A DNA stretch of 64,000 nt from Nitrospirota bacterium (GTDB lineage: Bacteria; Nitrospirota; Thermodesulfovibrionia; UBA6902). Below the pieces are notes generated by a model. The model was not told the origin of the DNA. It made no database searches and saw only the letters and a list, made by a program, of their open reading frames with translations. Made by a program: the position numbers and the translations under genes. Where the stretch lies: the NCBI GenBank assembly GCA_016214845.1, contig JACRMS010000032.1, positions 82,655 to 146,654 on the forward strand, read 5' to 3'. Shown piece after piece: positions 1 to 14,723 of this stretch (positions within the stretch are counted from its first letter, which is position 1; each line of letters begins with the position of its first letter).

Positions 1-483
1 CGTAGCAGTGGCGCCTGTGCCTGTGCCGTAAACATCGTCGATGGTGACAACAGGATCGGTGTATCCACTGCCACCAGCCTCAACCGTGACGACAGAGACG
101 GCCCCTGTCGGAAGCGGGCTGTAAGCCCAGTTACCATAAGGCCCGAAATAATGCGGTACCCCGCCGGGGTCGAGAGCGAAAGCTGCAGGAGCTGCTGCAG
201 CCGCAAGTGGAGCTGCAAGCTGCCAGCTCTGTATTCTCTGAGTAGCCGTTGCCGCAAGTGGATCTACAGGCTGACCGACCTGTATTTTCTGAGCGCGCAT
301 CGCTTTGAAACGGGCTGCCGCGGCCTTCTTCTCGGCCTGTGTAGCTCGTCCGCGATACTTAAGTACCTGTTTGGCACCGGCGCTGTTATTCGTTGTCTGC
401 GCCCAGCCCATGTCAATGCCCAATGAAAGGGCGACCACTGTAAATACCACACTTATAAAATTCAAAAAGTTATGCATCTTCAT
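1..483 (-). CDS. Secreted protein, N-terminal part (gene runs off the left edge)
   Basis: The fragment starts with ATG at 483 behind a strong ribosome site (AAAGGAGAGAT, 487-497). It encodes a signal peptide: basic start MKMHNF, hydrophobic core to about residue 24, then a likely cleavage after GWAQ near residue 29. The mature part is Ala/Gln-rich, followed by an aromatic stretch (HYFGPYGNWAYSPLPTG) and a VTVEAGGSGYTDPVVTI segment of the beta-strand type seen in large secreted proteins. The start resembles N-termini I associate with secreted multicopper oxidases, but no copper motif lies inside the window, so no function is assigned. The reading frame is continuous with the receiver-domain gene upstream; see that entry. 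Expression probably depends on the sigma54 promoter at 1012-1027. Confidence 0.6.
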   Translation of the reverse strand, partial: MKMHNFLNFISVVFTVVALSLGIDMGWAQTTNNSAGAKQVLKYRGRATQAEKKAAAARFKAMRAQKIQVGQPVDPLAATATQRIQSWQLAAPLAAAAAPAAFALDPGGVPHYFGPYGNWAYSPLPTGAVSVVTVEAGGSGYTDPVVTIDDVYGTGTGATAT

Positions 484-999
484 TTTATCTCTCCTTTCGT
501 GTTTGTTTTTGATGTTATTTGTTTGTTGGTTTTCTTCACATTTTTCATCCCCCTTTTTCACTGAAGTTAACCCGGCAATACGCCGTTTATTTTTTTGTCC
601 GGCTGAGATACCGGACACCCTTTTGTTTCCCGCCCCGTTGCTCAGCAGACTGCATATCATTTCAATAAGCGCTTCAAATCTGAAAGGTTTTGCGATGTAA
701 TCGCTGACGTTAAGCTGCTTAAGCATCTCTTCTGCCTCATCAGTAAGCCCGGCAGACATCACGATTACCGGTATTTCAACGCGTTTCTCAAGCAGATAAG
801 CTAAAAGCTCAAAGCCGTTTTTAACGGGCATATTCAGATCTGTTATCAAAAGGTCTATCTGACCGGATTCGAGAATTTTCTCCGCCTGCTCGCCGTTTTC
901 CGCCGTGATGATATTGAAATTTTTATCATAAAGCCTGAGTGCCTCGGACAAACTGGACAAAGTCAATTTCTCATCATCAACAAGCAGTAACGTTTTCAT
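484..999 (-). CDS. Receiver-domain response regulator, reading frame open into the secreted-protein gene
   Basis: ATG at 999 opens a CheY-like receiver domain: acidic pair D8/D9, phospho-acceptor D54 in ITDLNMP, the MSAG switch region and the conserved Lys in IAKPF near residue 104. About residues 125-172 form a charged, low-complexity tail (KKGDEKCEENQQTNNIKNKH). No stop codon separates this gene from the secreted protein below it: the frame from 999 to position 1 is fully open, and 483 lies exactly 172 codons after 999. Either the receiver gene has lost its stop, or a receiver-signal-peptide fusion exists. The internal ATG with its own strong ribosome site argues for independent translation of the downstream part. 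The sigma54 promoter lies so close that the transcript would start within a few bases of this ATG. Confidence 0.7.
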
Positions 1000-1011
1000 T
1001 ACACTTCTTAC

Positions 1012-1027
1012 TGCAAGGACAATGCCA
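1012..1027 (-). promoter_or_regulatory. Sigma54 (-24/-12) promoter
   Basis: Read on the minus strand the site is TGGCATTGTCCTTGCA, matching TGGCAY-N5-TTGCA at every conserved position, including the GG and GC doublets with correct spacing. It lies 12 bases upstream of the ATG at 999. The adjacent gene is an NtrC-family activator with an intact GAFTGA loop, the obvious candidate activator. The predicted start of transcription is near 1001. Confidence 0.8.
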
Positions 1028-1104
1028 CTTTTAAATAGTAGGTAGAATTACGCAGTTACAATTTTTGGGGTTTCCGGGAAGGTGATATCAGTTTATTTGG
1101 GACG

Positions 1105-1136
1105 GTCCATATTGAACGGACAGGTCCATTTTGGAC
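1105..1136. promoter_or_regulatory. Tandem inverted-repeat enhancer-type sites for the sigma54 promoter
   Basis: Two related dyads lie 80-125 bases upstream of the sigma54 promoter. One is GTCC-N9-GGAC at 1105-1121; the other is GTCCATTTTGGAC at 1124-1136. Their repeat arms and their distance from the -24/-12 element fit upstream activator sites for an NtrC-type protein. They sit just beyond the stop codon of the activator gene. Binding by that activator is inferred. Confidence 0.55.
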
Positions 1137-1144
1137 TATGAATT

Positions 1145-2500
1145 TTATTTTAGGCCGTACTCTTTGATCTTCCTCTTTAGAGTGGAAAGAGATATTTGCA
1201 GTGCTGCCGCAGTCTTGGAAACATTGAATGAAAGTTTTTTGAGTGTGGAATGGATATATTGTTTCTCCACCTCCTCAAGAGGCAGGATGGTGTCCCCGGT
1301 GAGTTCTTCATTACAGGCCGGGGCAGGATTGCGGGCCTCACTCAGAAGCACGGAGGGAGTGATAAAGTTCCCGCTCTGAAGGAGACAAGTCCTCTCAAGA
1401 ATGTTTCTCAACTCACGCACGTTTCCGGGCCACTTATAATTCATGAGCTTCTCAAACTCTGAATCCTCAATTTTAATGTCACGGCAGTTTGTTATCTTTT
1501 TCAGAAGATAAGAGCAGATTTCGGGTATGTCCTGCTTTCTTTCCCGCAGCGGGGGGATATGTATCCTGATGACGCTTAACCTGTAGTAGAGGTCGCTCCT
1601 GAATTTCGAACCCATAACGTTTTCAAGGTCTGCGGACGTGGCGGCTATAACACGGAAATTTACAGGCCGGATAAGGTCTCCGCCAAGCCTTTTTATTTTT
1701 TTATCTTCAAGGACGCTGAGGAGCTTTGACTGGAGGTGCAAGGGCATTTCTCCTATTTCATCAAGCAGGAGGGTCCCGCCTTCAGCCATTTCAAATATTC
1801 CCCGTTTGGAAGAGGCAGCGCCCGTGAATGCGCCTTTTTCATAGCCGAAGAGCTCCGCCTCTATCAGGTTCTCAGGAAGCGCGGCGCAGTTGATGCTTAT
1901 AAACGCGTCTTCCTTGGCAGGGCTTTTATAGTGAATGGCCTTGGCCGCAACATTTTTGCCGGTGCCGGTTTCCCCTGTAATTAAGACCGGGGCGTCCGTT
2001 GAGGCGGCAAGGTCCACGGCCTTCAGGATTTCCGAAAACTCCCTGCTGCCGCCCACAAGGACAGCATCTTCGCTGTCTTTTACTTTTCTGTAACTCTCAA
2101 TTTGAGCGGTCTTCTCAAGGCTGAGGGTCTTTAAGGCCTGTTTTACGGCAAGGTACAGCTCCTCCATCTCAAAGGGTTTTGACAGATAGTTATGGGCGCC
2201 TGCCTTAATGGCCCTGACCGCGTTCTCGAAACTGGGATAGGCAGTGATAAATATTATCTTCGTCTGGTCGTTGTATTTCAGGATCGAGGGGCAAATGGTG
2301 TGTCCCTCGCCATCAGGCAGGTTCTGATCGAGCATGACAATATCAACCTTGTTCTGCGAGCAGGCGGCGGTCCCGTCCGCGATTGAATGCGCGGCAAGGA
2401 CCTTCAGGTTGTCTTTATTCAGGTGGTCTTTGATGACGTCGCACAACAGCCTGTCGTCATCTATTATAAGCAGGACCCTTTTGTCTCTATCGCTGTTCAC
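1145..2500 (-). CDS. NtrC-family sigma54-dependent response regulator
   Basis: The protein has 451 residues in the canonical three-domain order. The receiver domain (1-120) has D14/D15/D16 and phospho-acceptor D58. The AAA+ domain (about 145-370) has Walker A GETGTGKN and the GAFTGA loop that contacts sigma54. A C-terminal Fis-type helix-turn-helix follows (about 410-451, with TAAALQISLSTLKRKI). It overlaps the 3' end of the histidine kinase gene by 14 bases, so the two form a translationally coupled two-component pair. The only good sigma54 promoter seen in the window lies immediately downstream with paired dyad sites, so its target is probably the receiver/secreted-protein ORF. The signal sensed is not known. 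Confidence 0.93.
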   Translation of the reverse strand: MNSDRDKRVLLIIDDDRLLCDVIKDHLNKDNLKVLAAHSIADGTAACSQNKVDIVMLDQNLPDGEGHTICPSILKYNDQTKIIFITAYPSFENAVRAIKAGAHNYLSKPFEMEELYLAVKQALKTLSLEKTAQIESYRKVKDSEDAVLVGGSREFSEILKAVDLAASTDAPVLITGETGTGKNVAAKAIHYKSPAKEDAFISINCAALPENLIEAELFGYEKGAFTGAASSKRGIFEMAEGGTLLLDEIGEMPLHLQSKLLSVLEDKKIKRLGGDLIRPVNFRVIAATSADLENVMGSKFRSDLYYRLSVIRIHIPPLRERKQDIPEICSYLLKKITNCRDIKIEDSEFEKLMNYKWPGNVRELRNILERTCLLQSGNFITPSVLLSEARNPAPACNEELTGDTILPLEEVEKQYIHSTLKKLSFNVSKTAAALQISLSTLKRKIKEYGLK

Positions 2501-4688
2501 TCAGGACCTCAGCGACAAATATGTCAACTTCCGTGCCTTCATTTATCCGGCTTTTCACCTCTATTGAGGAATTCATTTTCGCAAGCATTTTTCTCGCAAT
2601 GACCAGGCCCAGTCCGGTCCCGCTCGATTTGGTAGTATAAAAGGGTTTGAATAAATTTCCAAGATGCTCCCCGGTTATGCCGCAGCCGTTGTCGGAGAAC
2701 CTGAGCCGTATCATACCTGAAGACTTTGAAACAGTGATGGAAATTTTCGGGTCTGGCCTGCCTTCGCATGCGTCAATTGCGTTGGTAAAAATATTTAAAA
2801 GCACCTGCTGGAGCGCGCGCGGGTCCGCATGGCATAACTCCGCATCCGGATCCACAGAGCATGTTATGGCGATACCCTTTCTCTCGTAATCCTCTTTAAA
2901 CAGAGAAAGAAATTTCTCCAAAAAATCCGTCATCCTTATGTCCTGTAACGCAGGTGTTTCATACATATTGAAAGTCTTCAGGCTTTTCAGCAGATATTCA
3001 ACCCGTGACAGCTCATCCTGTATGCGCTGAATATAATTCAGAACAGACTCCTTTGAATAATTGTCCAGGTTTGTCTGGAGCACCGTCAGGGCCATTTTTA
3101 TTGAGTTGATGGGATTGCCTATTTCGTGCCTGATCCCGGAGAAGATGTAGCCGATATTGTTCATGGTATTTACAGCCTCTGCAATGGATTCAAGCCTGAG
3201 TTTTTCACTCACATCACGCCTGACAGAGACGTAGTTTATGATCTTTCCGGCGGCATCATTAACCGGGGAGATAGTGCAATCTTCATGATAAAGCGAGCCG
3301 TCCTTCTTTTTACTTATCAGAAGGCCGTTCCAGATATTCCCCAGTTTCATCGATTCCCTGATGACCTGATAAAAAGCCTCGTCATGCCTGCCGCTGTCAA
3401 GTATATGCAGATCATGCCCGGCAGCGTCCTGACGTGAAAAACCTGTTATGCGTTCAAAGGCCGGATTGGCATACTGGATCTTCCCTTTGATGTCGGTTAT
3501 TACAAATGCGTCAGGCGCGGATTCGGCTGCTGCCATAAGGCGAGTGCGGTCTTCTTCTATGCTGAACCTGTGAATGACTTCTCCGACAATAGGGGCCATC
3601 ACCTCCATGAACTCAACATCCTTCCCTGACAGCCTTCCTTCATTTTTATCGGCAAGGTAAAATGCCCCGAGTGTCCTGTTTTGATGGCGGATGGGGACAA
3701 CTGCTATTGACGCAAAGCCATTTTGAGCGCATACACCTCTGAAACATTTCTTTCCGTTTTCCTCCGATGAGTTCATAAGTTCACGCGAGTTGTTGCAGAA
3801 GAAAGAACCGTTCGGAGTAATAAAAGGGGCGTCACAGCGCTCGAATTTTCCGGTTATCACCCTGATGCAGGCACACTGGTCCGTCTTGACCGAGAGACAA
3901 TTTTCCCTTTCCCAAAACTCCCTGCTGTAACCAACGTATGACTCATAAGGGATCCCCCCGTTTTCATCCAATATCCTTACGCCTACGCACCGGCATTTGC
4001 TCCATACTCTTACAAGGTCTACCACAGAATCCAGGTAGTCATTTCTTGAAAAGCTGCGAGTGAACAGTTGCAGCAGGTCGTTGCTTGCGCGGGCCATCTC
4101 GTTGGCCCGGAGAAGTTCAGCGGTCCTCTCCCGGACCCTGAGCTCCAGCTCTTCTTTTGCCTTTTGTAACGCCTCTTCCATCTTCTTGCGCTCCGTGATA
4201 TCCATAAGCATACCAGACAAAATATCCCCGTCAAGGGTCGCGCTTAAAAGTATATTTTTTATTTCCCCTGTTCTTGTAAGCAATTCGACTTCGAAATGGT
4301 CCACCCTGGCGTCCTTCTTGATCCTTTGGATCAACGCAACCCTGTCCTCCGGATTTTTATAGCTGGACAATATGTTGTGATGCTTTAATTTTTGAAGAGT
4401 CTCATATTCGAAAATGCGCAATAGCGCTTCGTTTGCGTAAATAAGGTTGCCATTTAAATTCGTAGTAAAAATGCCTACAAGGGAAGTATCTACAAGATGT
4501 CTGTACTTCTTTTCGGACTCAATAAGCTTTTGCTCGATCTCTCTCCGCTCGCTGATGTCGCTTACAGTGGACTCCTGACTGCCGGCGGGCTGGTCCGGCA
4601 TTTTCCTGTCCGCCTTTTTTCGGTGGACAGGAAAATTGCTGGATGCAGGATTGGTCCTTTTCATTTTTGTTTTGGTGTTCCGGGGCAT
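2487..4688 (-). CDS. PAS-GAF-PAS sensor histidine kinase
   Basis: This is a soluble kinase of about 733 residues from ATG 4688. In order it has an N-terminal PAS domain (starting near KKYRHLVDTSLVGIF), a coiled coil (KAKEELELRVRERTAELL), a Cys-rich GAF domain (CRCVGVRILDE, DQCACIRVI), a second PAS (ESAPDAFVITD), a HisKA domain with H-box GIRHEIGNPINS, and a HATPase domain (NIFTNAIDA, SSGTGLGLVIARK). There is no membrane segment, so the input is cytoplasmic; the many Cys in the GAF region could bind a metal or sense redox. The frame is open back to a GTG at 4718, but a TTGCGG-N17-TATAAT promoter spans 4695-4723. That makes ATG 4688 a likely leaderless start. The partner is the NtrC-type regulator that overlaps its 3' end. 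Confidence 0.9.
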   Translation of the reverse strand: MPRNTKTKMKRTNPASSNFPVHRKKADRKMPDQPAGSQESTVSDISERREIEQKLIESEKKYRHLVDTSLVGIFTTNLNGNLIYANEALLRIFEYETLQKLKHHNILSSYKNPEDRVALIQRIKKDARVDHFEVELLTRTGEIKNILLSATLDGDILSGMLMDITERKKMEEALQKAKEELELRVRERTAELLRANEMARASNDLLQLFTRSFSRNDYLDSVVDLVRVWSKCRCVGVRILDENGGIPYESYVGYSREFWERENCLSVKTDQCACIRVITGKFERCDAPFITPNGSFFCNNSRELMNSSEENGKKCFRGVCAQNGFASIAVVPIRHQNRTLGAFYLADKNEGRLSGKDVEFMEVMAPIVGEVIHRFSIEEDRTRLMAAAESAPDAFVITDIKGKIQYANPAFERITGFSRQDAAGHDLHILDSGRHDEAFYQVIRESMKLGNIWNGLLISKKKDGSLYHEDCTISPVNDAAGKIINYVSVRRDVSEKLRLESIAEAVNTMNNIGYIFSGIRHEIGNPINSIKMALTVLQTNLDNYSKESVLNYIQRIQDELSRVEYLLKSLKTFNMYETPALQDIRMTDFLEKFLSLFKEDYERKGIAITCSVDPDAELCHADPRALQQVLLNIFTNAIDACEGRPDPKISITVSKSSGMIRLRFSDNGCGITGEHLGNLFKPFYTTKSSGTGLGLVIARKMLAKMNSSIEVKSRINEGTEVDIFVAEVLSEQR

Positions 4689-4694
4689 GGTTAA

Positions 4695-4723
4695 ATTATA
4701 TAATGGAAAACAATCCACCGCAA
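4695..4723 (-). promoter_or_regulatory. Sigma70-type promoter in front of the histidine kinase
   Basis: On the minus strand the -35 element is TTGCGG (4718-4723) and the -10 element is a perfect TATAAT (4695-4700), with a 17-base spacer. Only TTAACC separates the -10 from ATG 4688, so transcription would begin at or next to the start codon. No ribosome-binding sequence is present there. Confidence 0.55.
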
Positions 4724-4729
4724 TTTTTT

Positions 4730-5965
4730 TTATGACAGGTAAAAAATAACGGATTCTTTGATGGCAGGCAGTTCCTCTTCTGTGAGGCCAAAATGTTTCA
4801 AGTCTGCCGGGTCAGCCTCGGGGACGCGGAAATTGCCGCTTGAGCCCAGCTCAAATTTTTGCACAAGCACATTGGAGACATGCACTGCAGCGACAATATC
4901 CTGGTTGGTCTTACAGAGGCGCGGCTCGTGGTGCCATCTTATTGCGTTCACCAGAAATGACGGCATGCTCCACCACTCGGCAAGATGCCTGCCTATCTCC
5001 TCGTGGTTTGTCTCCAGGATATCGTATTCGGCTTCTATCAATAACGATTTCTTCAAGCGGGCAGTGTCCATAATTTTCCTGAAATCGTCGGCAAGGCACA
5101 TTTCCTCGACAAGCTTTCCCATGTCATGCAGTAACCCGGCGGTAAAGGCCCTTTCAGCTTCCTTGTCGTCCAAATGCGGCAGCCTGCCGGCAAGCATTTT
5201 TGCCAGAATGCCGCATGAAAGTGAATGGGTCTGAAAATCCTTCAGGTCAAAGCCCGTGTCCGACTGAGATCCGGGCGACATAGGGCTGAAAATCGAATAT
5301 GAGAGGACCAGTCCTTCAACAATGTCTATACCTAGGACCATCAAGGCGCGTTCAACAGTGTCAACCTTATGCCTCTGGCCGAAGAGGGATGAGTTGGCCC
5401 AGCGCAGGAGTTCAGCAGAGATGGACGTGTCCTGCTCGATGATCTCCGCAAGGTGTTCTATGGATACGGTATTTATATGCGAAAAACATTTTTTAATTTC
5501 AAAATAGGTTTGCGGCATAGTCCTAAGAGTGGAGATGGAGTTGATGATCTTCTGCAGCCCTTTGCCCTTTTGCTTCAACTCCTCTGCCTGAAGGAGGGCG
5601 TCCCGTATGATTCCTTTAAGCTCGTCGTCCCTCCACGGTTTTGAGACAAGCTGCTGGGCGCATCCCTCCGAGAGGGCCTGGACTATTGCGCCGCGGTCTG
5701 CATATCCGCTTAAAAAAATACGGACGACATGGGGATAAAGCTCCCGGACCTGTTTTAGAAAGGTTATGCCGTCCATGCCCGGCATCCGCACGTCGGAGAT
5801 AACAAGGTCAACGTCCTCTTTTTTCAGGACGTCTATTGCCTTTTCCCCGCTTTCAGCAAAGCGGAGGTCCCATGCCTCATCCTGAAGCAGCCGCCGGAGG
5901 GAATTAAGAATACTCAACTCGTCATCCACAAAAAGTATGGTCTGGCGCTCTTTATCCATTATCAA
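4730..5965 (-). CDS. Response regulator with HDOD output domain
   Basis: The protein has 411 residues. It has an N-terminal receiver domain (1-125: D14/D15, phospho-acceptor D58 in ISDVRMPG, switch LSGYADRGAI, Lys in SKPW). An HDOD domain follows (about 150-370: FSHINTVSIEHLAEIIEQD, SAELLRWANSSLFG, and a degenerate HD-type LLHDMGKLVEEM). HDOD proteins act in cyclic-nucleotide or developmental signalling, and the HD motif here is mostly regulatory in the family. It lies directly upstream of the kinase on the same strand. The kinase also has its own promoter in the 40-base gap, so this gene may or may not share its transcript. Possible starts are ATG 5965 and the in-frame ATG two codons later; AGAGAG lies upstream. 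Confidence 0.9.
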   Translation of the reverse strand: MIMDKERQTILFVDDELSILNSLRRLLQDEAWDLRFAESGEKAIDVLKKEDVDLVISDVRMPGMDGITFLKQVRELYPHVVRIFLSGYADRGAIVQALSEGCAQQLVSKPWRDDELKGIIRDALLQAEELKQKGKGLQKIINSISTLRTMPQTYFEIKKCFSHINTVSIEHLAEIIEQDTSISAELLRWANSSLFGQRHKVDTVERALMVLGIDIVEGLVLSYSIFSPMSPGSQSDTGFDLKDFQTHSLSCGILAKMLAGRLPHLDDKEAERAFTAGLLHDMGKLVEEMCLADDFRKIMDTARLKKSLLIEAEYDILETNHEEIGRHLAEWWSMPSFLVNAIRWHHEPRLCKTNQDIVAAVHVSNVLVQKFELGSSGNFRVPEADPADLKHFGLTEEELPAIKESVIFYLS

Positions 5966-6100
5966 ATCTCTCTGTTCCGCTTGCAGCGCATTTAAATTAT
6001 GATATCACTTTAAAATTGCTATCTCAAATTAACCGCAAGCCTTTCACCTTATATATCGGATGTTATACGCGGGAGATTAAAGCGGGGAAACACAATAAAG

Positions 6101-6520
6101 TTACAGGTTATATCTCAGAACGACAGCCTTGCAAAAATTGTCGATATCTCTCAGATGCTTTTTCCAGACAGTGTAGACGATTTTCATGTCAGTCTTTTCG
6201 TATTCATGCACGATTCTGTTTCTGAATCCCGACATCTGGACCATTTTTTTTGCGAGAGGCTTTGAAATGATCTTGTTCTTTGAAAGCATTTCAAAGACCT
6301 CCGCCTGTGTTGCAGGAGTCTCCCATTCCGAATCACTTATGATGTGAGCGCCGATATCAATACATGTCTGTATCGCCTGAATAAGATTAAAAAGAACAAT
6401 GCTCTGGAGGTCCCTGTCATTTGCAAACGACTTGATCCCGGGGTCCTTTTTCTGACGGACCTGGTTAAGGTAGGTTTCCATCCTTTCGAGTTTCCTGCTG
6501 ATAAGGGATTTATCAACCAA
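6101..6520 (-). CDS. hepT: HepT-like HEPN RNase toxin
   Basis: The protein has 139 residues, is all-helical, and belongs to the DUF86/HepT type. The active-site motif R-x4-H-x-Y is intact (RNRIVHEY, near residue 100). In characterised HepT/MntA pairs, the Arg and His cut RNA and the Tyr is the residue AMPylated by the antitoxin. The gene overlaps the upstream nucleotidyltransferase gene by 8 bases, the usual order for type VII pairs. The conserved Tyr implies the antitoxin-by-AMPylation mechanism, which is inferred from the family. Confidence 0.88.
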   Translation of the reverse strand: MVDKSLISRKLERMETYLNQVRQKKDPGIKSFANDRDLQSIVLFNLIQAIQTCIDIGAHIISDSEWETPATQAEVFEMLSKNKIISKPLAKKMVQMSGFRNRIVHEYEKTDMKIVYTVWKKHLRDIDNFCKAVVLRYNL

Positions 6521-6947
6521 CTGCTGCCCTCCTGAAACGGTTAGCGACAGCTTTGTTAAAGATGTCCTCTATCGGCTTGAAATCAAGATACTCAATAATC
6601 GCCTTTGCAGTAAAGTTCACCCTCAGTTCCCTGTCTTGGTCAAAGAGTATCCTCCCGGTTTTAAGAACGCGATGTTTCAGATAAGGCGAAGCGGTATTTA
6701 GAATTATAATGTCCACCAGGCGCAAAGTAAAAGACGGCGAAGCGAGATAGTATTCATTTTTCAAACGCTCAAAGTTCCTTCTTTTCAATTTCTTTTCATT
6801 GACGAGAACAGCTATATCAATATCGCTTTCCTTTGTTCCTCTGCTCCTGGCAAGGCTTCCGAAAAGATATAATGCTGATACCTCTTCCCTGCGTTTAAAA
6901 TAGTTCACGATTCTTTTTATGTCGCTATCCATATCGGGCTTTTTCAT
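6513..6947 (-). CDS. mntA: MntA-like nucleotidyltransferase antitoxin
   Basis: The 144-residue minimal nucleotidyltransferase has the fold motif GSx10DxD (GSLARSRGTKESDID) near residues 29-43. Members paired with HepT transfer AMP to the toxin's Tyr and so neutralise it. It is the first gene of the pair and overlaps hepT by 8 bases. The N-terminus (MDSDIKRIVNYFKRREEVSALYLFG after the first residues) matches the family. The pair lies next to an accessory island, typical for such modules, but outside the direct repeats that bound it. Confidence 0.88.
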   Translation of the reverse strand: MKKPDMDSDIKRIVNYFKRREEVSALYLFGSLARSRGTKESDIDIAVLVNEKKLKRRNFERLKNEYYLASPSFTLRLVDIIILNTASPYLKHRVLKTGRILFDQDRELRVNFTAKAIIEYLDFKPIEDIFNKAVANRFRRAAVG

Positions 6948-6971
6948 TTTCAGATTATAGCATATGCACAG

Positions 6972-7027
6972 CTATCTCCAACACACTCCGCGGGGACAGA
7001 TACGGCGCAGAAGCTGCGCTCGATTGC
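6972..7027 (-). pseudogene. Degenerate fragment of a glutamate-synthase ferredoxin tail
   Basis: This stretch aligns with the 3' end of the oxidoreductase gene at about 12402-12460, with scattered substitutions and small gaps. The shared core is GGCGCAGAAGCTGC. Translated on the minus strand it gives I-E-R-S-F-C-A-V-S-V-P, a decayed form of the cluster I-G-C-S-F-C-A-G-I-C-P. It is a third, older copy next to the perfect repeat that begins at 7146. Confidence 0.6.
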
Positions 7028-7145
7028 TGGCGCTGGAAGATATTTATGAGTGAAAATGGATGGGAATAGGCGGTCCAATCAACAAAATTGAACCAGCAAG
7101 ATCATTTCCGGATTTCGGTTTTCACAGGAATGACAAAAAGGAAAG

Positions 7146-7252
7146 CCTTAAATATTCTCCGTCATCTCCCACACGCCGCAGGGGCAGATGCCGGCGCAGA
7201 AGCTGCATCCGATGCAGAGGTTTTCGTCAACCACGTATTCGTATGAACCGTC
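7146..7252. repeat. Left copy of a perfect 107-bp direct repeat
   Basis: Every base of 7146-7252 equals 12388-12494, in the same orientation, 5242 bases apart. Flanking bases differ at both ends (G7145 versus C12387; T7253 versus G12495). The two copies bound the AT-richer island. The right copy is the functional 3' end of the glutamate-synthase oxidoreductase gene. Confidence 0.97.
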
Positions 7253-7344
7253 TTTGTAAAGGATTCATTCACGCATGTTGTAAGCGGGAATCCGGTTTTT
7301 ATATACAATTCCCCTGTAATGGATTGCTTCGTACATACAGCACG
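7146..7344 (-). pseudogene. 3' fragment of a second oxidoreductase (gltB-like) copy
   Basis: Positions 7146-7252 are identical to the last codons of the gene at 12390. Beyond 7252 the identity stops, but a decayed version of the preceding coding sequence can still be traced. On the minus strand about 7300-7344 gives C-M-Y-E-A-I-H-Y-R-G-I-V-Y-K, comparable with E-A-T-C-Y-Y-G-A-I-S-R-K in the intact gene. The stop codon is kept. It is therefore a truncated paralogue or remnant rather than a simple target-site copy. The 6948-7392 gap holds no other gene. Confidence 0.6.
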
Positions 7345-7392
7345 TTTTTACCTGAAAAATCCCAGCCGATTAGTATAAAATGGTTCTTATAA

Positions 7393-8487
7393 ATGCCTCG
7401 TAAAAGCGACCAATATAAGCCATCAAAAAATATTTGGATAACTACGGGCATTTTCTCAAGCCATTATCTTCTTGAACGCCTGCCGCAGACAGGAACAAAA
7501 TTATGGCCCTCAGATGAAGAAGTATCTCCAATATTTAAGGCAATTCAGGATTTATACAAGGCGAATATTGTCGGATTGAGAAAAGGCAATGAAGCCAATA
7601 CCGAGAGGAGATTTATCGATAAAGTTATTAATGAATTGGGTTATGGTTTTCTTAATCAGAACCAAATTCCAGAAGCGGAGCGCAGACAGGTTCCCGATTA
7701 TTTCCTCTATTCCTCCCGTAAGGACGCTGACAAAGCCTTTGAGTTATCTTCGCATATGAAATATAAGTTGGCGCTTTCAATTACCGAGGCAAAGCGATGG
7801 GACCATAACCTGGACAAACCTTCTTCCGGTAAAGGCAAAGCTCCAGGGGGCAGGTATCCGCATCAACAGATAAGAGATTATCTGAACGAGTCAGAGCACA
7901 TTAAATGGGGAATTCTTACCAATGGCAAAGAGTGGCGGCTTTATTTCAAAGAGGGACGCTCAAGCAAGTTCTTCGAGATAGATATTGAAGATTGTCTTGA
8001 AGATATTCAGAGGTTTAAGTATTTCTATGCTCTCTTCAGACCCTTAGCTTTTATAAAAGACAGCTCCGGCAGATGTCTCCTTGATAATATTTTTGATGAA
8101 TCCCTGAGATTTCAGGAAGACATTGAAAAAGACCTTAGAGTAAAAGTATTTAAATGTGTTGAATGGCTTGGCCACGGGTACCTTTCCAGAGAAGAAAACC
8201 ATCTTTCGGAAAAAGACCTCGACTCGATTTACCATCACAGTCTTATTCTTTTATACAGGATACTCTTTGTGCTCAATGCAGAGGCAAGGGACTTGCTGCC
8301 TACTAATCCACTGACAAAATATTACAAGCATTACGGGTTTCAGCGAATAAAAGACAGGGCAAGACAGGAGAAAGGCGAGTTTATCAGCGCCAAGACAGTC
8401 TTGTATGATGAGCTTTTGGCTCTTTTTCATCTGATAAACGGCAGCAATGAAAAGCTCAATAAGGATATGAATATCCCCCGATACAAC
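7393..8487 (+). pseudogene. Type IIG restriction-modification enzyme, N-terminal remnant
   Basis: About 365 codons match the front part of Eco57I-like fused restriction-methylases. There is an amino-terminal nuclease-type region (VPDYFLYSSRKDADKAF, LALSITEAKRWD, WGILTNGKEWRLYF) and a helical linker. It ends at MNIPRYN, which in intact relatives leads into the methylase domain (IPRYNGGLF). At 8487 the homology stops exactly where the antiparallel PLD gene ends. The frame then reads 24 unrelated codons to 8559. The methylase core (NPPY motif and SAM site) is missing, and the specificity end reappears at 9481. Function is probably lost unless the fragment works alone as a nuclease. Confidence 0.7.
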
Positions 8488-9401
8488 TATCTTCCACGAT
8501 ATTGTTTGCCATATTCAGTAAATTTAAATAAGCCAGTATATTTCCCTTTCGTTTCATAAAGCCCTTTGTTGTACGCATTGTCGAAACCAACTAAGTCATC
8601 ATAAATTGCACCTCGTATATTTGCCCTGAAGTTTGTCAAATTGAAATCAAGTTTCTCATCCTGAATTCTTGTTAAAACATAATTCCCGATTTCTTGTAAT
8701 TTAGCATATTCGGCATTTTGTGTTAAATGTTTTATCGCTTCAATAATCAAAGATTTAAATGTAGGTACTGTTCCAGGTAATTCTTTTTCCCTCCGTTCAA
8801 TGTCTGCTATTACTTTCTTTAACCCTTTATCATTTCTCGCTTTCTCTTCACTCTTTGAAAATGCAGAATAGATATCGGAGTAGCCGCTTAAATATTCTTC
8901 ATCAGGCTCAAAAATAGACGGAGTAAATTTTACAGAATTATAGATTGCTTCAAGCTGAGAAAAATAAAGCGGTTTGTCTTCTTTGATAACTGTATTTACT
9001 TCAAAATTTGAAAGCAAACCGCCGCCTGTTAGGTTTGTGCTGCCAATAATCGATGTCGTCTCTTTTTTGTTATTAAAGAGGTAAATTTTCGGATGAAAAA
9101 CGATATCAGTTTTGTTGTCTTTTTTATCGCCGAAGCAAAAGAAAGTCAAATTTGGAAATGACTTCTTAATATTAAGTAAAAAGTTTATTGCTTGAGGGTC
9201 GGTCGTTTTAAAATCTAACCCCGCAATGATTTCGACATTGCTTTTCTTTGATAAACAACTATTCAATGACTGCTCAATCACCTTCAATCCAGAATATTTC
9301 ATAAATGCAACAGCTATTCTTGCCTGAGTTGAATTTGCCAATTCTTGATTGATGATGTTGCCGATAGGATAATTTAAGTTGGACAGTATTTGCAGTTTCA
9401 T
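8487..9401 (-). CDS. PLD-family (phospholipase D-like) protein, possible nuclease
   Basis: The protein has 304 residues. The N-terminal half is a PLD-like fold with a single HKD-type motif: HPKIYLF, then IIGSTNLTGGG (H-x-K and G-S-x-N). This arrangement is common in dimeric PLD nucleases and in defence-linked helicase/nuclease partners. The C-terminal half (from about residue 190) is charged and helical, with RANIRGAIYDDLVG and a basic end. It has its own ATG at 9401 preceded by AAAAGAGA. The gene sits antiparallel in the place of the methylase core of a type IIG gene. A DNA-processing or defence role is inferred. Confidence 0.65.
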   Translation of the reverse strand: MKLQILSNLNYPIGNIINQELANSTQARIAVAFMKYSGLKVIEQSLNSCLSKKSNVEIIAGLDFKTTDPQAINFLLNIKKSFPNLTFFCFGDKKDNKTDIVFHPKIYLFNNKKETTSIIGSTNLTGGGLLSNFEVNTVIKEDKPLYFSQLEAIYNSVKFTPSIFEPDEEYLSGYSDIYSAFSKSEEKARNDKGLKKVIADIERREKELPGTVPTFKSLIIEAIKHLTQNAEYAKLQEIGNYVLTRIQDEKLDFNLTNFRANIRGAIYDDLVGFDNAYNKGLYETKGKYTGLFKFTEYGKQYRGR

Positions 9402-9480
9402 TATGATGTCTCTTTTTATCTTTCTGTTACCAGTTTACAAAAAAATTACACAAAGTTACAAGAAAAAGTTGCTTTCCTGA

Positions 9481-10497
9481 AATAGTTGTTTTCCTTCTCA
9501 ACGCACATTTGAAAAAAGAATTAACATAGCACTAAAATTAAACACAGTTTCTAATGAAATAATTGTTATGGAATTTTTGACAGACGAAGAAAAAGGCCCG
9601 ATCATTTTTAGAGGCGCACATGTAAATAGGTATGAATTTCAGGAAGAACCTAAACAAGGAACACCTATGTATCTTGATGTCCAAAAATATCTTGATGCAC
9701 ATGGTAAAAATACAAAGGCATATGATTACAAATACATCAGAATCGGCTATCAGAGAGGAGCTGCAATAGATAACTGGCGCAGAATCATTGCAACCATTAT
9801 TGCGAAAGACAGTTTTTGCTCGGATACAATTAATTATATCATCAATCCTAAAGAGTACGCTCTCTTTTCTATTCTCGCCATGTTAAATTCATCATTATGG
9901 GAATGGAGATTCCGTCTTACAAGCACAAATAATCATGTAAACTCTTATGAGATTGACTCCATGCCAATGCCTCCAATTTTATTCACAACTCCAGAAAAAG
10001 AAAGAAAAGAATTCTACATGGAAGCTGTCACACTGTATAGACGTTCAAAATATGAAGACATTTCAAAATGGGCTGATTATGAATTAGCGATGGACAGAAA
10101 CGACACCAGTCATGACTTTCTCGCCTACCTTGCCGAGCAGATGATTGAATTAAATAAAACCAAGAACGAGGAGATCAAAGGCTTCCTCATATGGCTTGAG
10201 CGTGAGATCGGAACAGACATTGACGGCTTAACAAATAAAACTGCAATCAAAGAATATCATGAGCATAGCTTTGATCACTTTCTTGAAGTCCTCAAAAGAA
10301 ATAAAAACAAACTTTCTATAAACTCTTCCGACAGAAAGAAACAGGAACTCCTTGAGAATCATTTCATGAAAAGCATGTCGGTTCTTGAGCCGGTGAAAAA
10401 TAGAATCAAGACAGCCGATGAATTGATAGATCAGATTGTTTATAAGCTCTACGGTCTAACACCGGAGGAGATTACGATTGTGGAGGGGGAAAAGTAA
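9481..10497 (+). pseudogene. Type IIG restriction-modification enzyme, C-terminal specificity remnant
   Basis: The frame is open from 9481, after a stop at 9478-9480; an ATG lies at 9568. The conserved segment starts as EKGPIIFRGAHVNRYEF and continues with the target-recognition region of Eco57I-like enzymes (YKYIRIGYQRGAAIDNWRR, FSILAMLNSSLWEWRF, NHVNSYEIDSMPMP). It ends with the helical tail (TADELIDQIVYKLYGLTPEE). No ribosome site precedes ATG 9568. With the N-terminal remnant at 7393 it frames a missing methylase core of several hundred codons. It could be translated as an orphan recognition domain, but a broken gene is more likely. Confidence 0.7.
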
Positions 10498-10579
10498 AAA
10501 TAACCATTGAAGATATTGTGTTATGTTGCTAATATATTACGTATAGGCAGACCCACATGTAAGATCATTCAGGAGAATT

Positions 10580-11896
10580 ATGACGGCTGAAATTGCAATA
10601 ATGAATAAAACGGCAGTGGCTCTTGCGGCTGATAGCGCAGTTACGATTGAACAGAACAAAGGGCATAAGATTTTCAATACGGTCAACAAGCTGTTTACCC
10701 TGTCAAAATTTCATCCGGTTGGAATAATGATCTATGGCAGTGCTAATTTTATGGATATCCCATGGGAATCGATTATTAAGATATACAGAGCAAGATTAGG
10801 TAAGCAGAAGTTTGCTACTTTAAAAGAATATGCCGATAGTTTCATTTCTTTCCTATCTGAAAATATTACTTTGTTCCCAGAAGCCGAACAGAAAAAGTAT
10901 TTCTTCAGGGCCATTGCTGGGTATTTTACAGACTTACGGGGTGAAATAGATGAGCAGGTAAAAGAAAAAATATCTTGTGATAAGAAAATTACGGAAACAT
11001 CAGTAAAGGAAATAGTTGAACAGACTATCAGAAAGCATTACGAGGTATGGAATAAAGTTGAAAAGTTAACCCATATCAGTAGCGATTTTGATAAAACCCT
11101 GATTGATAACTATGGCGATCTAATTATAAAGGCTAAGGATGAAATTTTTCAGCAATTGCCGATTTCGGAGAAAACTGTTGAAGATTTGCAGATTATTTGT
11201 GCAGGTATCTTTTCAAAAGATAGGTTTGCGAGAAATTCTTCCGGTTTGGTTATAGCCGGATTTGGCGAAGAAGAAACATTCCCGGCGCTTGTTTCATTTG
11301 CTATGGAAGCCAAAATTAATAATACGCTTAAATTTAAGAAAGAAAAAGACGCGGCTATTAACGTTGACTCCTTAGCATGGATTATTCCTTTTGCACAAAG
11401 CGAAATGGTTGCCACGTTTATCGAAGGCGTTGATCCCGGATACAATAAAATCATATCTGACTATCTTTCGGAATATTTCGAGAAGTATCCTGATTATATT
11501 GTGGATAGCATTGAAAATATTAATGCTGCCAGAAAGCAAGAGTTTTCAAAAAAGCTGAAAGAAATCGGTCTTTCAATACTTGCAGATTTTAATAAAAAAT
11601 TGCAGGAGTATAGGCAGGTTTCTCACATTAATCCCATCACCAGTGCGGTATCATTTCTTCCGAAAGATGAACTTGCTGCAATGGCGGAATCGCTTGTCAA
11701 TCTAACTTCCTTTAAAAGAAAAATATCTTTAGATGCTGAAACCGTTGGTGGCCCCGTTGACGTTGCCGTAATCTCGAAAGGTGATGGATTCATCTGGATC
11801 AAAAGAAAACATTATTTCAAGCCGGAATTAAACCCTGGGTTTTTTGCTAATTATTTTCGGAAAAATAGAGAGGAGCACGATAATGAAAAAGTCTAA
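10580..11896 (+). CDS. Proteasome-like Ntn-hydrolase of unknown role
   Basis: The protein has 438 residues; I know of no assigned function. The N-terminus aligns by eye with proteasome beta subunits. Thr2 would become Thr1 after Met removal, Asp18 (VALAADSAV) matches the beta-subunit position 17 acid, and Lys37 (NTVNKLF) matches Lys33. The following YGSANF resembles the next strand. A helical insert (about 60-200) and further strands (SGLVIAGFGEEETFPAL; VGGPVDVAVISKGDGFIW near the end) make it about twice as long as a beta subunit. Ribosome site AGGAGAATT precedes ATG 10580. The next gene overlaps by 14 bases. Peptidase or amidase activity is inferred from the putative Thr-Asp-Lys triad only. 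Confidence 0.6.
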   Translation: MTAEIAIMNKTAVALAADSAVTIEQNKGHKIFNTVNKLFTLSKFHPVGIMIYGSANFMDIPWESIIKIYRARLGKQKFATLKEYADSFISFLSENITLFPEAEQKKYFFRAIAGYFTDLRGEIDEQVKEKISCDKKITETSVKEIVEQTIRKHYEVWNKVEKLTHISSDFDKTLIDNYGDLIIKAKDEIFQQLPISEKTVEDLQIICAGIFSKDRFARNSSGLVIAGFGEEETFPALVSFAMEAKINNTLKFKKEKDAAINVDSLAWIIPFAQSEMVATFIEGVDPGYNKIISDYLSEYFEKYPDYIVDSIENINAARKQEFSKKLKEIGLSILADFNKKLQEYRQVSHINPITSAVSFLPKDELAAMAESLVNLTSFKRKISLDAETVGGPVDVAVISKGDGFIWIKRKHYFKPELNPGFFANYFRKNREEHDNEKV

Positions 11897-12071
11897 AATA
11901 AAGGTGAAAGAGTATCATTCAATGAAAGAGTACGAGAAAAAGTATTATCCGGAATCTTTCAAGAAACAATCTATTAAGATTAGTGACCCTTCAACTCTCG
12001 GCATTATTCTGGCAAGGGAATCTTTAAATAAGTTTAAGCATCTGATCCAAAAGCAAAAAGTGTGCATTTAA
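11883..12071 (+). CDS. Small basic protein coupled to the Ntn-hydrolase
   Basis: The 62-residue, Lys-rich protein starts MKKSKIKVKEYHSMKEY. It starts at ATG 11883 inside the last codons of the Ntn-hydrolase gene, behind GAGAGGAGC. The 14-base overlap and the good ribosome site imply coupled expression and a joint role. No known domain is recognised. The frame is open upstream to 11844, but the overlapping ATG with its ribosome site is preferred. A basic, partly helical partner or substrate tag is possible; this is speculation. Confidence 0.6.
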   Translation: MKKSKIKVKEYHSMKEYEKKYYPESFKKQSIKISDPSTLGIILARESLNKFKHLIQKQKVCI

Positions 12072-12086
12072 CATGAGAGAAGTAAA

Positions 12087-12377
12087 TTAGATCAAATTGT
12101 AGTTGTAGACAAAATACTGCCGCTTTTCTTTTTTAACCAGCTTCCTGAGTTTCTTTATAAACATGTCTTCGGAGTGAAGAACATTTTCGACGCTGTCATT
12201 AATTGTAATTATAAAAGAAATATGGCGGTAATCAGGAATTTCCGGGTCTTTGCTTATGAATATATTGATGTTCTGTATATGCTTAAAAGTCTCTATAAAA
12301 AGACTGTAGTATTTACAGCATTCCTGGAATACATTTTGATTTAAACAAAAACCGAACACTTCTTCTGAGAATATCAA
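12087..12377 (-). CDS. Hypothetical 96-codon ORF, probably 5'-truncated
   Basis: The encoded product is a small aromatic-rich protein (VFGFCLNQNVFQECCKYYS, RHISFIITINDSVENVL, RQYFVYNYNLI) with alternating strand-like and helical stretches and no recognised domain. The frame opens right after the stop codon of the oxidoreductase gene. It has only a TTG as possible start (12377), 10 bases inside the right direct-repeat boundary at 12388. This suggests the original 5' end was cut off by the event that placed the repeat. An ATG-started shorter protein is not obvious. Base composition matches the AT-rich island. Confidence 0.4.
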   Translation of the reverse strand: MIFSEEVFGFCLNQNVFQECCKYYSLFIETFKHIQNINIFISKDPEIPDYRHISFIITINDSVENVLHSEDMFIKKLRKLVKKEKRQYFVYNYNLI

Positions 12378-12387
12378 ACTTCCAACC

Positions 12388-12494
12388 CCTTAAATATTCT
12401 CCGTCATCTCCCACACGCCGCAGGGGCAGATGCCGGCGCAGAAGCTGCATCCGATGCAGAGGTTTTCGTCAACCACGTATTCGTATGAACCGTC
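12388..12494. repeat. Right copy of the perfect 107-bp direct repeat
   Basis: This copy is identical to 7146-7252. It includes the stop codon and last 34 codons of the oxidoreductase gene, covering the final ferredoxin cluster (CIGCSFCAGICPCGVW). Confidence 0.97.
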
Positions 12495-14723
12495 GGGATT
12501 GTCCTTCCTGCTGATCGCTCCGTAATAACATGTCGCCTCGCACATGTGGCAGTCCCTGCATACGGCGCAGGACATGCAGCGGTTGGCCTCGGTCTCCGGC
12601 TTGAAGGGTTCGCCTTTGCAGATGTCGTAATAGGAGGTTTTTATCTTTTCATAGGGGACCAGCGGTTTTTTTGCAGGCATATAATAAGACCTTCCCGCAA
12701 GCAGTGCGTGCACAGCATCCGCAGCTTTTCTCCCGTGACCGATGGCGTGCGTTACGAGTCCGAGCTTGGTTGCATCGCCGATCGCATAAACCTTGGGGTC
12801 GGAGGTATGCCCGACTTCGTCAGCTTCTATCCAGCCGTTTTTGTTTGTGTGAATGCTTGGCGTCAGGAACTCAGTCATTGGCGTATCGCCAATTGATATC
12901 ACGACAACATCTGCATCAAGCGATGAGCCGTCGGTGAAGTAGATCTTCTTGTCTTTCTTTACAAATTTTTCGGTGAACTTCGGCCAGAGGATCTTCGTGC
13001 CCAATGACTGGGCGATCTCAAGCTCCTTGCCGAATGCAGCGGGTTTCTGGATATCAACTGCTGTCACCTCTTTTGCGCCGCAGTGGAAGGCCTGGGCCGC
13101 AACGTCCATTCCTACATTTCCAGCGCCGATGACGACAACCCTCTTGTCTTTCAATTTCGGGGCATCGCCGATATTTATTCCCTTCAAAAAGTCATATGCG
13201 GAAACCGTGTCCTCCGCCCCGGTGACATTCATCATCCTCGGTTTGTGCGCCCCGCACGCCACTACTACCGCGTCATGCTTTTTGTATATATCTTCAAACT
13301 TCTTTTTATTCACCGCCGCCTTCAAATGGACCTTCACTCCGATCTTTTCAAAACGCGAAAGTTCATTTATAAGGACCTCCTGAGGAAGCCTTTCTCTTGG
13401 GATGCAGAGTTCGAGTTTACCGCCAAGCTTTTCCGCTGCCTCGTAAAGGTCAACGTCATGCCCTTTCAGCGCAAGCTGCCAGGCTGCGGACAACCCGCCG
13501 GGGCCGCCGCCGATGATCGCAACTTTTTTATTCGTCTTTTTCTCGCGCTTCGGAAGCTTCAGGTCAACGCTTGCCCTGCCCAGTTCCTTGATATTGAAGG
13601 GCGTATCAACCTGCGCCCTTGTGCATGTCTGCATACAGAGGTTGGGACATATCTCGCCGCATACTGAAGCGGGAAGAGGGCTGTATTGAAGAACAAGCTC
13701 CAATGCCTCATGGAGTTTTCCGGCCCGGATAAGCTGCGCGCGTTTTTGCGTAGGTATCCCGCTTGGGCACGCGTATTCGCAGGGCGGAGCGTATTTATAA
13801 TTGTTCCAGACAGGCTTGTATCTCCTGTCTTCGCCGGTTGTTATGTAAGGAAGAACTGTGAAAGGATGGTTCAGGTACTCCGCGAAGATCCCGCCCTTGC
13901 CGACGCCCGTTTCCCAAATATTGTTACGGAACTCGGTGATGGACATCTTGAAGACTTTCTTCTTCGCGCGTTCCTGCGCGGCGAAGGGCACGAGTTTTTT
14001 CCAGTCGTCTTTTGAGCGGGTAAGCGTATCGAGATATTCCGTGCGCTCAATTGCTTCAAGATACGGCTTCATGTTCTCTGTGAGCCATTGCCAGTCTTGG
14101 TCCGTAAGATCAAGGAGCCTGACGTCGCCTTCGCTGTAGCCCTGGATCGGCCCGCGGAAATAAACCATGCCGCCAACCATTCCGACACACGGGCGGTAGC
14201 CCAAGACATTCTCCGGATTCCTCGGATCAACCCCGCAGACAACTGCAATGCCGCCTGCCTTGAATTCAGCGAATGTATCTCCCACGTCCCTGAAATACCA
14301 TGACTGCGGAGGGTCGAATTTCGGGTTGTGCTTTGTCATCGTATCGCAGCGCGCGCCTCCGCTTCCCTGCACATAGAGTATCCCCTGTGCGGCGGCATTG
14401 TGGGCGCCGTTAGTGACATCACCGAGAACAGTAATCTTCGCGCCGCAGTTTATCCAGCCCACATCGTCAGAGGCGCTTCCCTTTAGAACTATCTCGGTCC
14501 CGAAAAAGCCCATACTGCCGAGCCTCTGCCCGACAGGACCTTCCACTGTAAGCTTTACAGCCTCGCCTTTTGGCCAGACCCTTCCGCCGATGCCGTGCTG
14601 CCCGTCTGCGATGATCCGGATCTCTCTCGCGCCCTGTCTGACTGCGTCCTGTATCTCTTCTTCAAAGATCCTTGACGGGGTGCGCTTGCCGTTTATGTTC
14701 CCTTTTAAAGTTATCTTTTTCAT
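12390..14723 (-). CDS. Archaeal-type glutamate synthase subunit: GXGXG domain fused to NAD(P)H oxidoreductase and ferredoxin
   Basis: The protein has about 777 residues from ATG 14723. Residues 1-230 form the glutamate-synthase beta-helix (GXGXG) domain (DGQHGIGGRVWPKG, GWINCGAKITVLGDV). A GltD-like part follows, with an N-terminal Fe-S region (CEYACPSGIPTQKRAQ, CGEICPNLCMQTC), an FAD site (VAIIGGGPGGLSAAW), an NAD(P)H site (VVVIGAGNVGMDVAA) and an FAD-closing motif (VYAIGDATKLG). The end is a 2[4Fe-4S] ferredoxin (CMSCAVCRDCHMC; CIGCSFCAGICPCG). It supplies electrons and the C-terminal structural domain to the FMN subunit encoded 93 bases upstream. The frame extends to 14750 inside a heptamer repeat, so ATG 14723 is preferred. 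The last 107 bases occur again at 7146. Confidence 0.9.
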   Translation of the reverse strand: MKKITLKGNINGKRTPSRIFEEEIQDAVRQGAREIRIIADGQHGIGGRVWPKGEAVKLTVEGPVGQRLGSMGFFGTEIVLKGSASDDVGWINCGAKITVLGDVTNGAHNAAAQGILYVQGSGGARCDTMTKHNPKFDPPQSWYFRDVGDTFAEFKAGGIAVVCGVDPRNPENVLGYRPCVGMVGGMVYFRGPIQGYSEGDVRLLDLTDQDWQWLTENMKPYLEAIERTEYLDTLTRSKDDWKKLVPFAAQERAKKKVFKMSITEFRNNIWETGVGKGGIFAEYLNHPFTVLPYITTGEDRRYKPVWNNYKYAPPCEYACPSGIPTQKRAQLIRAGKLHEALELVLQYSPLPASVCGEICPNLCMQTCTRAQVDTPFNIKELGRASVDLKLPKREKKTNKKVAIIGGGPGGLSAAWQLALKGHDVDLYEAAEKLGGKLELCIPRERLPQEVLINELSRFEKIGVKVHLKAAVNKKKFEDIYKKHDAVVVACGAHKPRMMNVTGAEDTVSAYDFLKGINIGDAPKLKDKRVVVIGAGNVGMDVAAQAFHCGAKEVTAVDIQKPAAFGKELEIAQSLGTKILWPKFTEKFVKKDKKIYFTDGSSLDADVVVISIGDTPMTEFLTPSIHTNKNGWIEADEVGHTSDPKVYAIGDATKLGLVTHAIGHGRKAADAVHALLAGRSYYMPAKKPLVPYEKIKTSYYDICKGEPFKPETEANRCMSCAVCRDCHMCEATCYYGAISRKDNPDGSYEYVVDENLCIGCSFCAGICPCGVWEMTENI

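Follow-up and report, generated by a model that had tools for sequence, protein, structure and literature searches.

A mobile two-gene cassette pairing a proteasome-like threonine hydrolase with a small basic partner, a candidate anti-phage module

A 64,000-nucleotide stretch of a Nitrospirota bacterium contig (GenBank accession number JACRMS010000032.1; here, the window) carries a two-gene cassette in which the first ORF (10580-11896) encodes a protein distantly related to proteasome beta subunits and the second a small basic partner. The cassette is rare, scattered and horizontally spread over unrelated bacteria, and its carriage by prophages, phage satellites, plasmids and restriction-system islands makes it a probable protease module of an undescribed anti-virus (or toxin-like) kind. 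With a probability of roughly 0.6, we read it as a protective module that works autonomously, most likely in anti-phage defense or superinfection immunity. The fold, the conserved Thr/Asp/Lys, the two-gene unit, its own terminator, the horizontal spread and the cargo positions are well supported by computation. Proteasome-like protein families are known, and many members of the wider family have no assigned function, whereas the mobile two-gene system has not been described. As a conserved unit with clear cargo behavior, it gives one of the largest new families of proteasome homologues a function that can be tested.

Table 1. Features of the cassette and its surroundings, in window coordinates
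Feature	Position	Strand	Evidence
HepT-like ribonuclease and MntA-type nucleotidyltransferase, toxin-antitoxin pair	6101-6520, 6513-6947	-	
Direct repeat, left copy, 107 bp, perfect	7146-7252		
Type IIG/DrmMI-like restriction-modification (R-M) protein, N-terminal fragment	7393-8559	+	PADLOC DrmMI 1.6e-20, REase_MTase_IIG 6.5e-17
PLD-domain protein (DrmC/NgoFVII-like), occupying the missing middle of the R-M gene	8487-9401	-	
R-M methyltransferase C-terminal fragment (TaqI_C-like)	9568-10497	+	
Ribosome site of protease gene, AGGAG	10571-10575	+	Sequence
Proteasome-like N-terminal-threonine hydrolase (phrog_5990; probable PMI-4 type), 438 aa	10580-11896	+	PHROG profile E 5e-126, residue conservation, AF2 model, Foldseek, PDB profile match
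Thr2 codon; predicted Thr1 nucleophile once Met is removed	10583-10585	+	Invariant, 83/83
Asp18 codon (proteasome Asp17)	10631-10633	+	Invariant, 83/83
Lys37 codon (proteasome Lys33)	10688-10690	+	Invariant, 83/83
Helical insertion 1, residues 101-212, 3′ of first core helix pair	10880-11215	+	AF2 model; sequence poorly conserved
Helical insertion 2, residues 316-358, H3/H4 interval	11525-11653	+	AF2 model
ETVGGPVD motif, residues 387-394; strand-start motif, aligned to archaeal proteasome beta SGGMID	11738-11761	+	Conservation and profile alignment
Ribosome site of partner, GAGGAG, within end of protease gene	11870-11875	+	Sequence
Small basic partner, 62 aa, charge +10; KKYYPES aromatic/Pro motif near N-terminus; predicted C-terminal helix 36-60	11883-12071	+	
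Direct repeat, right copy, 107 bp, 3′ end of glutamate-synthase-like gene	12388-12494		

Single-protein searches of Pfam, NCBIfam, PADLOC and PDB returned nothing useful, PADLOC having no model for the protease family, and a single-sequence viral scan gave no matches; proteasome beta was reached by the family profile alone. With a 73-sequence profile, the best sequence matches in PDB were archaeal proteasome beta subunits (E value, 3.3e-4), the alignment taking in the Thr1 to Lys33 region and the GG-x-x-D-V-A-V-I strand in the same order, with the Thr-to-Lys region of the family aligned to 1pma/3c91. Asp17 of the Thermoplasma acidophilum beta subunit was covered by the local alignment with a letter that was not identical, so Asp18 is assigned from its position and invariance. 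An AlphaFold2 model built from the same number of sequences (pLDDT, 90.6; pTM, 0.85) and its Foldseek matches in PDB, of which 48/48 at an E value of ≤1e-3 were 20S proteasome subunits or Anbu, both show the four-layer Ntn fold, and the best viral match was a phage "proteasome beta type-2." The initial annotation, which had aligned the N-terminus by eye with the proteasome triad and proposed a structure prediction and fold search of the Ntn core, is thus borne out. In the model, the added length is two helical insertions within one proteasome-like domain, and there is no second domain. Matches to a Borrelia lipoprotein and a type III effector were discarded as noise, being weak, far below cut-offs and confined to a helical insertion.

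Thr2, Asp18 and Lys37 lie at the residues originally claimed for them and were invariant in 83/83 non-redundant homologues. Neither of the two outcomes named beforehand as refuting the annotation, a model lacking the Ntn fold or homologues that do not conserve Thr2 and Lys37, was observed. Also invariant among these members were Ala16, Ser19, Met50, Pro61, Gly222, Gly227, Gly229 and Gly283 and, toward the C terminus, Val389, Gly391, Asp394, Gly403, Trp406, Lys410, Tyr412, Phe413 and Asn418. Since C-terminal patterns were used in 2/3 of the productive scans, the N-terminal invariance does not simply reflect how the members were found. The initiator codon (ATG in 83, TTG in 10 and GTG in 8 of 101 unique proteins) abuts the Thr, where the conserved part begins. 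Other catalytic positions of the 20S subunits are less well kept. The candidate equivalent of Gly47 is position 53 (Gly in 60/83, Asn in 16, Ser in 5), where the role would be that of the backbone and where 23/83 members are substituted. The accessory set Ser129/Asp166/Ser169 is not preserved as a whole in the family: the Ser169 position is an invariant Val (Val389 in the window protein) and that of Asp166 is variable, while the counterpart of Ser129 could be placed only tentatively. As the equivalents of Gly47, Ser169 and Asp166 are not strictly kept, peptidase activity is not assured. No promoter above the scan threshold was found 5′ of the protease gene in the window.

The protease resembles archaeal and eukaryotic 20S beta subunits in Thr1-Asp17-Lys33, the beta-sandwich fold and the strand named above, and departs from them in being twice as long, with two helical insertions, Val in place of Ser169 and no alpha subunit or ATPase. 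None of the latter was found near the protease gene, in agreement with the first reading of the sequence. The only PF00227 match in the genome is HslV (G000:C9:40279-40800), which forms an ordinary HslUV pair on a different contig. HslV is likewise bacterial and proteasome-like with an N-terminal Thr near the start; however, it is a 177-aa protein whose gene overlaps hslU, whereas the window protease has no unfoldase and, in its place, a small partner. Profile comparison of the protease family with this HslV was weak (24 columns).

The family had been judged to have no described function. This holds insofar as its probable counterparts are uncharacterized or labeled function unknown, but the family itself was already in the literature. 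Proteasome homolog with Multiple Insertions 4 (PMI-4; representative, HDY66466.1) was reported in 2021 by Fuchs, Alva & Lupas as an uncharacterized family, the only PMI family marked for phages, and no gene contexts or co-occurrences hinting at function were reported for the new homologues (PMC8665760). PMI-4 and the window family share a proteasome-like core that is interrupted by a long insertion after H1/H2 and again between H3 and H4, both lack a propeptide, and both range widely (Proteobacteria, Firmicutes, Bacteroidetes, other bacteria and phages for PMI-4; similarly wide, phages included, for the window family). The two are most likely the same, a match made by described insertion sites and not by sequence. 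Unlike in the published account of PMI-4, a small partner, a terminator and cargo or defense-island positions were found here. By profile, the window family is also PHROG 5990, since 18/18 aligned members match and the window protein matches over 425/438 residues; that entry is labeled function unknown and has no partner attached.

The 62-residue partner is encoded by a true gene. It was originally described as overlapping the protease gene by 14 bases with a good ribosome site, and the overlap is exactly 14 nt (11883-11896); the ribosome sites of both genes are good. Its co-occurrence with the protease, which had been proposed as a check, proved almost universal: a Shine-Dalgarno (SD)-led small ORF lies 3′ of the protease at 73/81 non-redundant loci compared with 58/328 control gene ends, and six of the remaining eight loci have a small ORF without an SD by the same test. 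In 19 related partner pairs, omega was 0.06 to 0.31 wherever computable, indicating purifying selection. A chance ORF was ruled out by the 18% control rate together with omega of at most 0.31. The partners (n = 79) had a median length of 58 aa and a median pI of 9.7, 67 were positively charged, and they fell into 36 sequence clusters, with cluster membership following the protease lineage (0/1000 permutations). The structural model of the window partner was mostly of low confidence, with the C-terminal helix as its single confident element. No partner without a protease was found among 60 relatives of the source genome. A terminator-like hairpin followed the partner at 39/68 loci (39/328 in controls), and with an SD-led partner and a terminator of its own the pair looks like a separate transcription unit.

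The variability of the partners also bears on whether the enzyme could be a specific amidase or a connectase-like protein ligase with the small partner as its substrate. Other proteasome-like homologs do not form barrels, and one of them, connectase, is a ligase that acts as a monomer (PMC8665760); the loss of the accessory Ser169 and the absence of a linked unfoldase fit such an activity as well. However, the insertions here lie after H1/H2 and between H3/H4, whereas that of connectase lies between S3 and S4, and no acceptor motif is conserved among partners of 36 clusters, which leaves a ligase very improbable.

The partner is best read as an inhibitor/sensor or a targeting factor of a protease. 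Methionine aminopeptidase removes Met before small second residues as an established rule, and would in this way free Thr1 as the nucleophile acting with Asp18 and Lys37; a propeptide or self-processing would therefore be unnecessary. The helical insertions would hold the enzyme outside a 20S-type barrel. With ring stacking perhaps hindered by the insertions, as argued previously (PMC8665760), and without a linked unfoldase, the enzyme is likely to act on a small number of exposed targets. The small, basic and mostly disordered partner would be made from the same transcript by translational coupling and would dock by way of the aromatic/Pro motif and the C-terminal helix, keeping the protease inactive or aiming it. 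Prophages, satellites, plasmids and restriction islands would carry the cassette in a silent state until infection released or redirected the complex and a phage or host protein was cut. Proteolysis, partner contact and role, trigger, target and defense phenotype are what we infer here. Taken whole, as a new anti-phage system spread across phyla in which the effector is a threonine protease of the proteasome family that has neither barrel nor ATPase and is checked or aimed by a dedicated, rapidly diversifying small partner, the proposal is tentative, a little short of an even chance. If true, it would to our knowledge be the first known proteasome relative acting in phage-bacterium conflict.

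In the window, which belongs to a draft genome of 3.4 Mb, the cassette sits in a stretch of 34 to 43% GC with flanks of 47 to 53%. The 107-bp repeats bound a 5.2-kb island that begins with the R-M fragment, ends with the partner and showed no integrase; they look like the product of integration that recurred at one gene end. A third, partial repeat copy lies near 6962-7017. The restriction remnants and PLD protein first noticed beside the protease were identified as such (Table 1). The HepT/MntA pair opens the low-GC stretch just outside the repeats and is also present in a sister genome (L235), and a 96-aa ORF with a TTG start (12087-12377, minus strand), convergent with the partner and without a Pfam match, may not be a gene. 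In the closest sister genome (L235, 4303-5561), the two ends of the same R-M gene are fused by deletion, and a DUF5615 gene stands where the window has the protease cassette, i.e., the same slot with different cargo. No protease was found in the other searched genomes of the genus, although nearly all have the flanking glutamate-synthase-like gene.

Across the Nitrospirota class, the cassette occurred in 4/230 genomes, every one from a different family, and related Nitrospirae MAGs encode proteins with 81 to 87% identity to the window protein. The protease lies 3′ of a type IIG R-M/methylase gene in the window and at two further loci (L002 and L004), and near a PDC-S02 gene at a third (L003). 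Besides the protease cassette, the L004 island (356-12984) holds an HKD+Snf2 helicase, PDC-S13, a split type IIG R-M, a PDC-M36A-like protein and a ClpP-like protease of the SDH type. Using tblastn, copies were found in 10/72,556 plasmid records and 13/50,697 phage records (∼30 to 38% identity, mostly full length), and alignment-based scans of IMG/VR yielded up to 164 loci.

In Escherichia coli, the cassette was present in 22/5,426 genomes, so a function could be tested in ordinary laboratory strains, given that the carriers are E. coli prophages. In one prophage it lies antisense between Q and the lysis genes; in another it is just 3′ of a repressor-like gene on the same strand, with its own terminator. 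RexAB is a prophage-encoded phage defense beside a repressor. The prophage defense gene bstA is located directly 3′ of the repressor (PMC8585504), and of the 21 systems that came out of a functional screen, 12 resided in prophages (PMC9519451). The likeness of the E. coli cassette to BstA and RexAB is one of position only; no kinship in sequence or fold is known, and the mechanism differs.

Among the neighbors at 60-odd IMG/VR prophage loci were repressors, Q antiterminators, endolysins and holins, and a copy in a Providencia phage lies on the late strand between dam and holin. Such neighbors would suit a regulatory or lytic-cycle protease that cuts a repressor, antirepressor or late protein, be it of its own or of a competing phage, and so sets the lysis-lysogeny switch or lysis timing, and late-strand copies that could be lytic genes count against defense. 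However, nearly all phage records are without the protease, it is often antisense to both nearest neighbors (19/60 loci by simple, approximate ORF calling), it frequently has its own terminator, and it is found in satellites, on plasmids and in R-M islands without adjoining phage genes (the window, L002 and L004); we consider this reading quite unlikely. Rarity, frequent antisense placement and presence in satellites and non-phage islands were also grounds for rejecting a structural or head-maturation phage protease.

In streptococcal satellites, the protease closes the cargo at the element end, in most cases together with its partner; the cassette follows a HigB-like/HTH pair, and sibling elements carry the same pair without the cassette. 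This arrangement, the presence on both plasmids and satellites and the coupling of two genes, the partner being small, basic and fast-evolving with one predicted helix, are what a toxin-antitoxin-like addiction system might show, with a host-toxic protease, a small downstream inhibitor and, as the main effect of the pair, stabilization of prophages, satellites and plasmids in place of combat against phages. Yet the partner has no DNA-binding domain and is located downstream, presence in ∼0.01 to 0.03% of plasmid and phage records is low for an addiction module, and the repeated repressor-proximal and satellite cargo slots suit defense at least equally. Addiction therefore ranks as the main rival to defense, and an unlikely one, although the two overlap and are not exclusive.

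Defense is placed first. The cassette is associated with defense islands and with prophage and satellite cargo slots, positions that are those of lysogenic accessory genes and defense genes. Prophage cargo can also be virulence or fitness genes, PADLOC lacks a model for the family, and the R-M gene adjoining the window cassette is itself broken, all of which counts against defense. The initial annotation had called the pair accessory and possibly defense-related from its island; the defense-linked location stands and extends far beyond the window, while defense itself we infer. A literature search, with most subscription papers outside its reach, returned no paper tying the protease family to phage defense and no report of the protease paired with a small partner.

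Some plasmid copies of the protease (L018, L020 and L023) are frameshifted or truncated, and the cassette is thus also lost by decay. On Rhizobium and Mesorhizobium plasmids (L006, L015, L019 and L020), multiubiquitin/ThiF (E1-like) operons lie within ∼1 to 2 kb of the protease, and in Rhizobium a ClpP-like gene is also near; a possible link to the multiubiquitin/E1/ClpP-like operons was considered, with two independent cases only.
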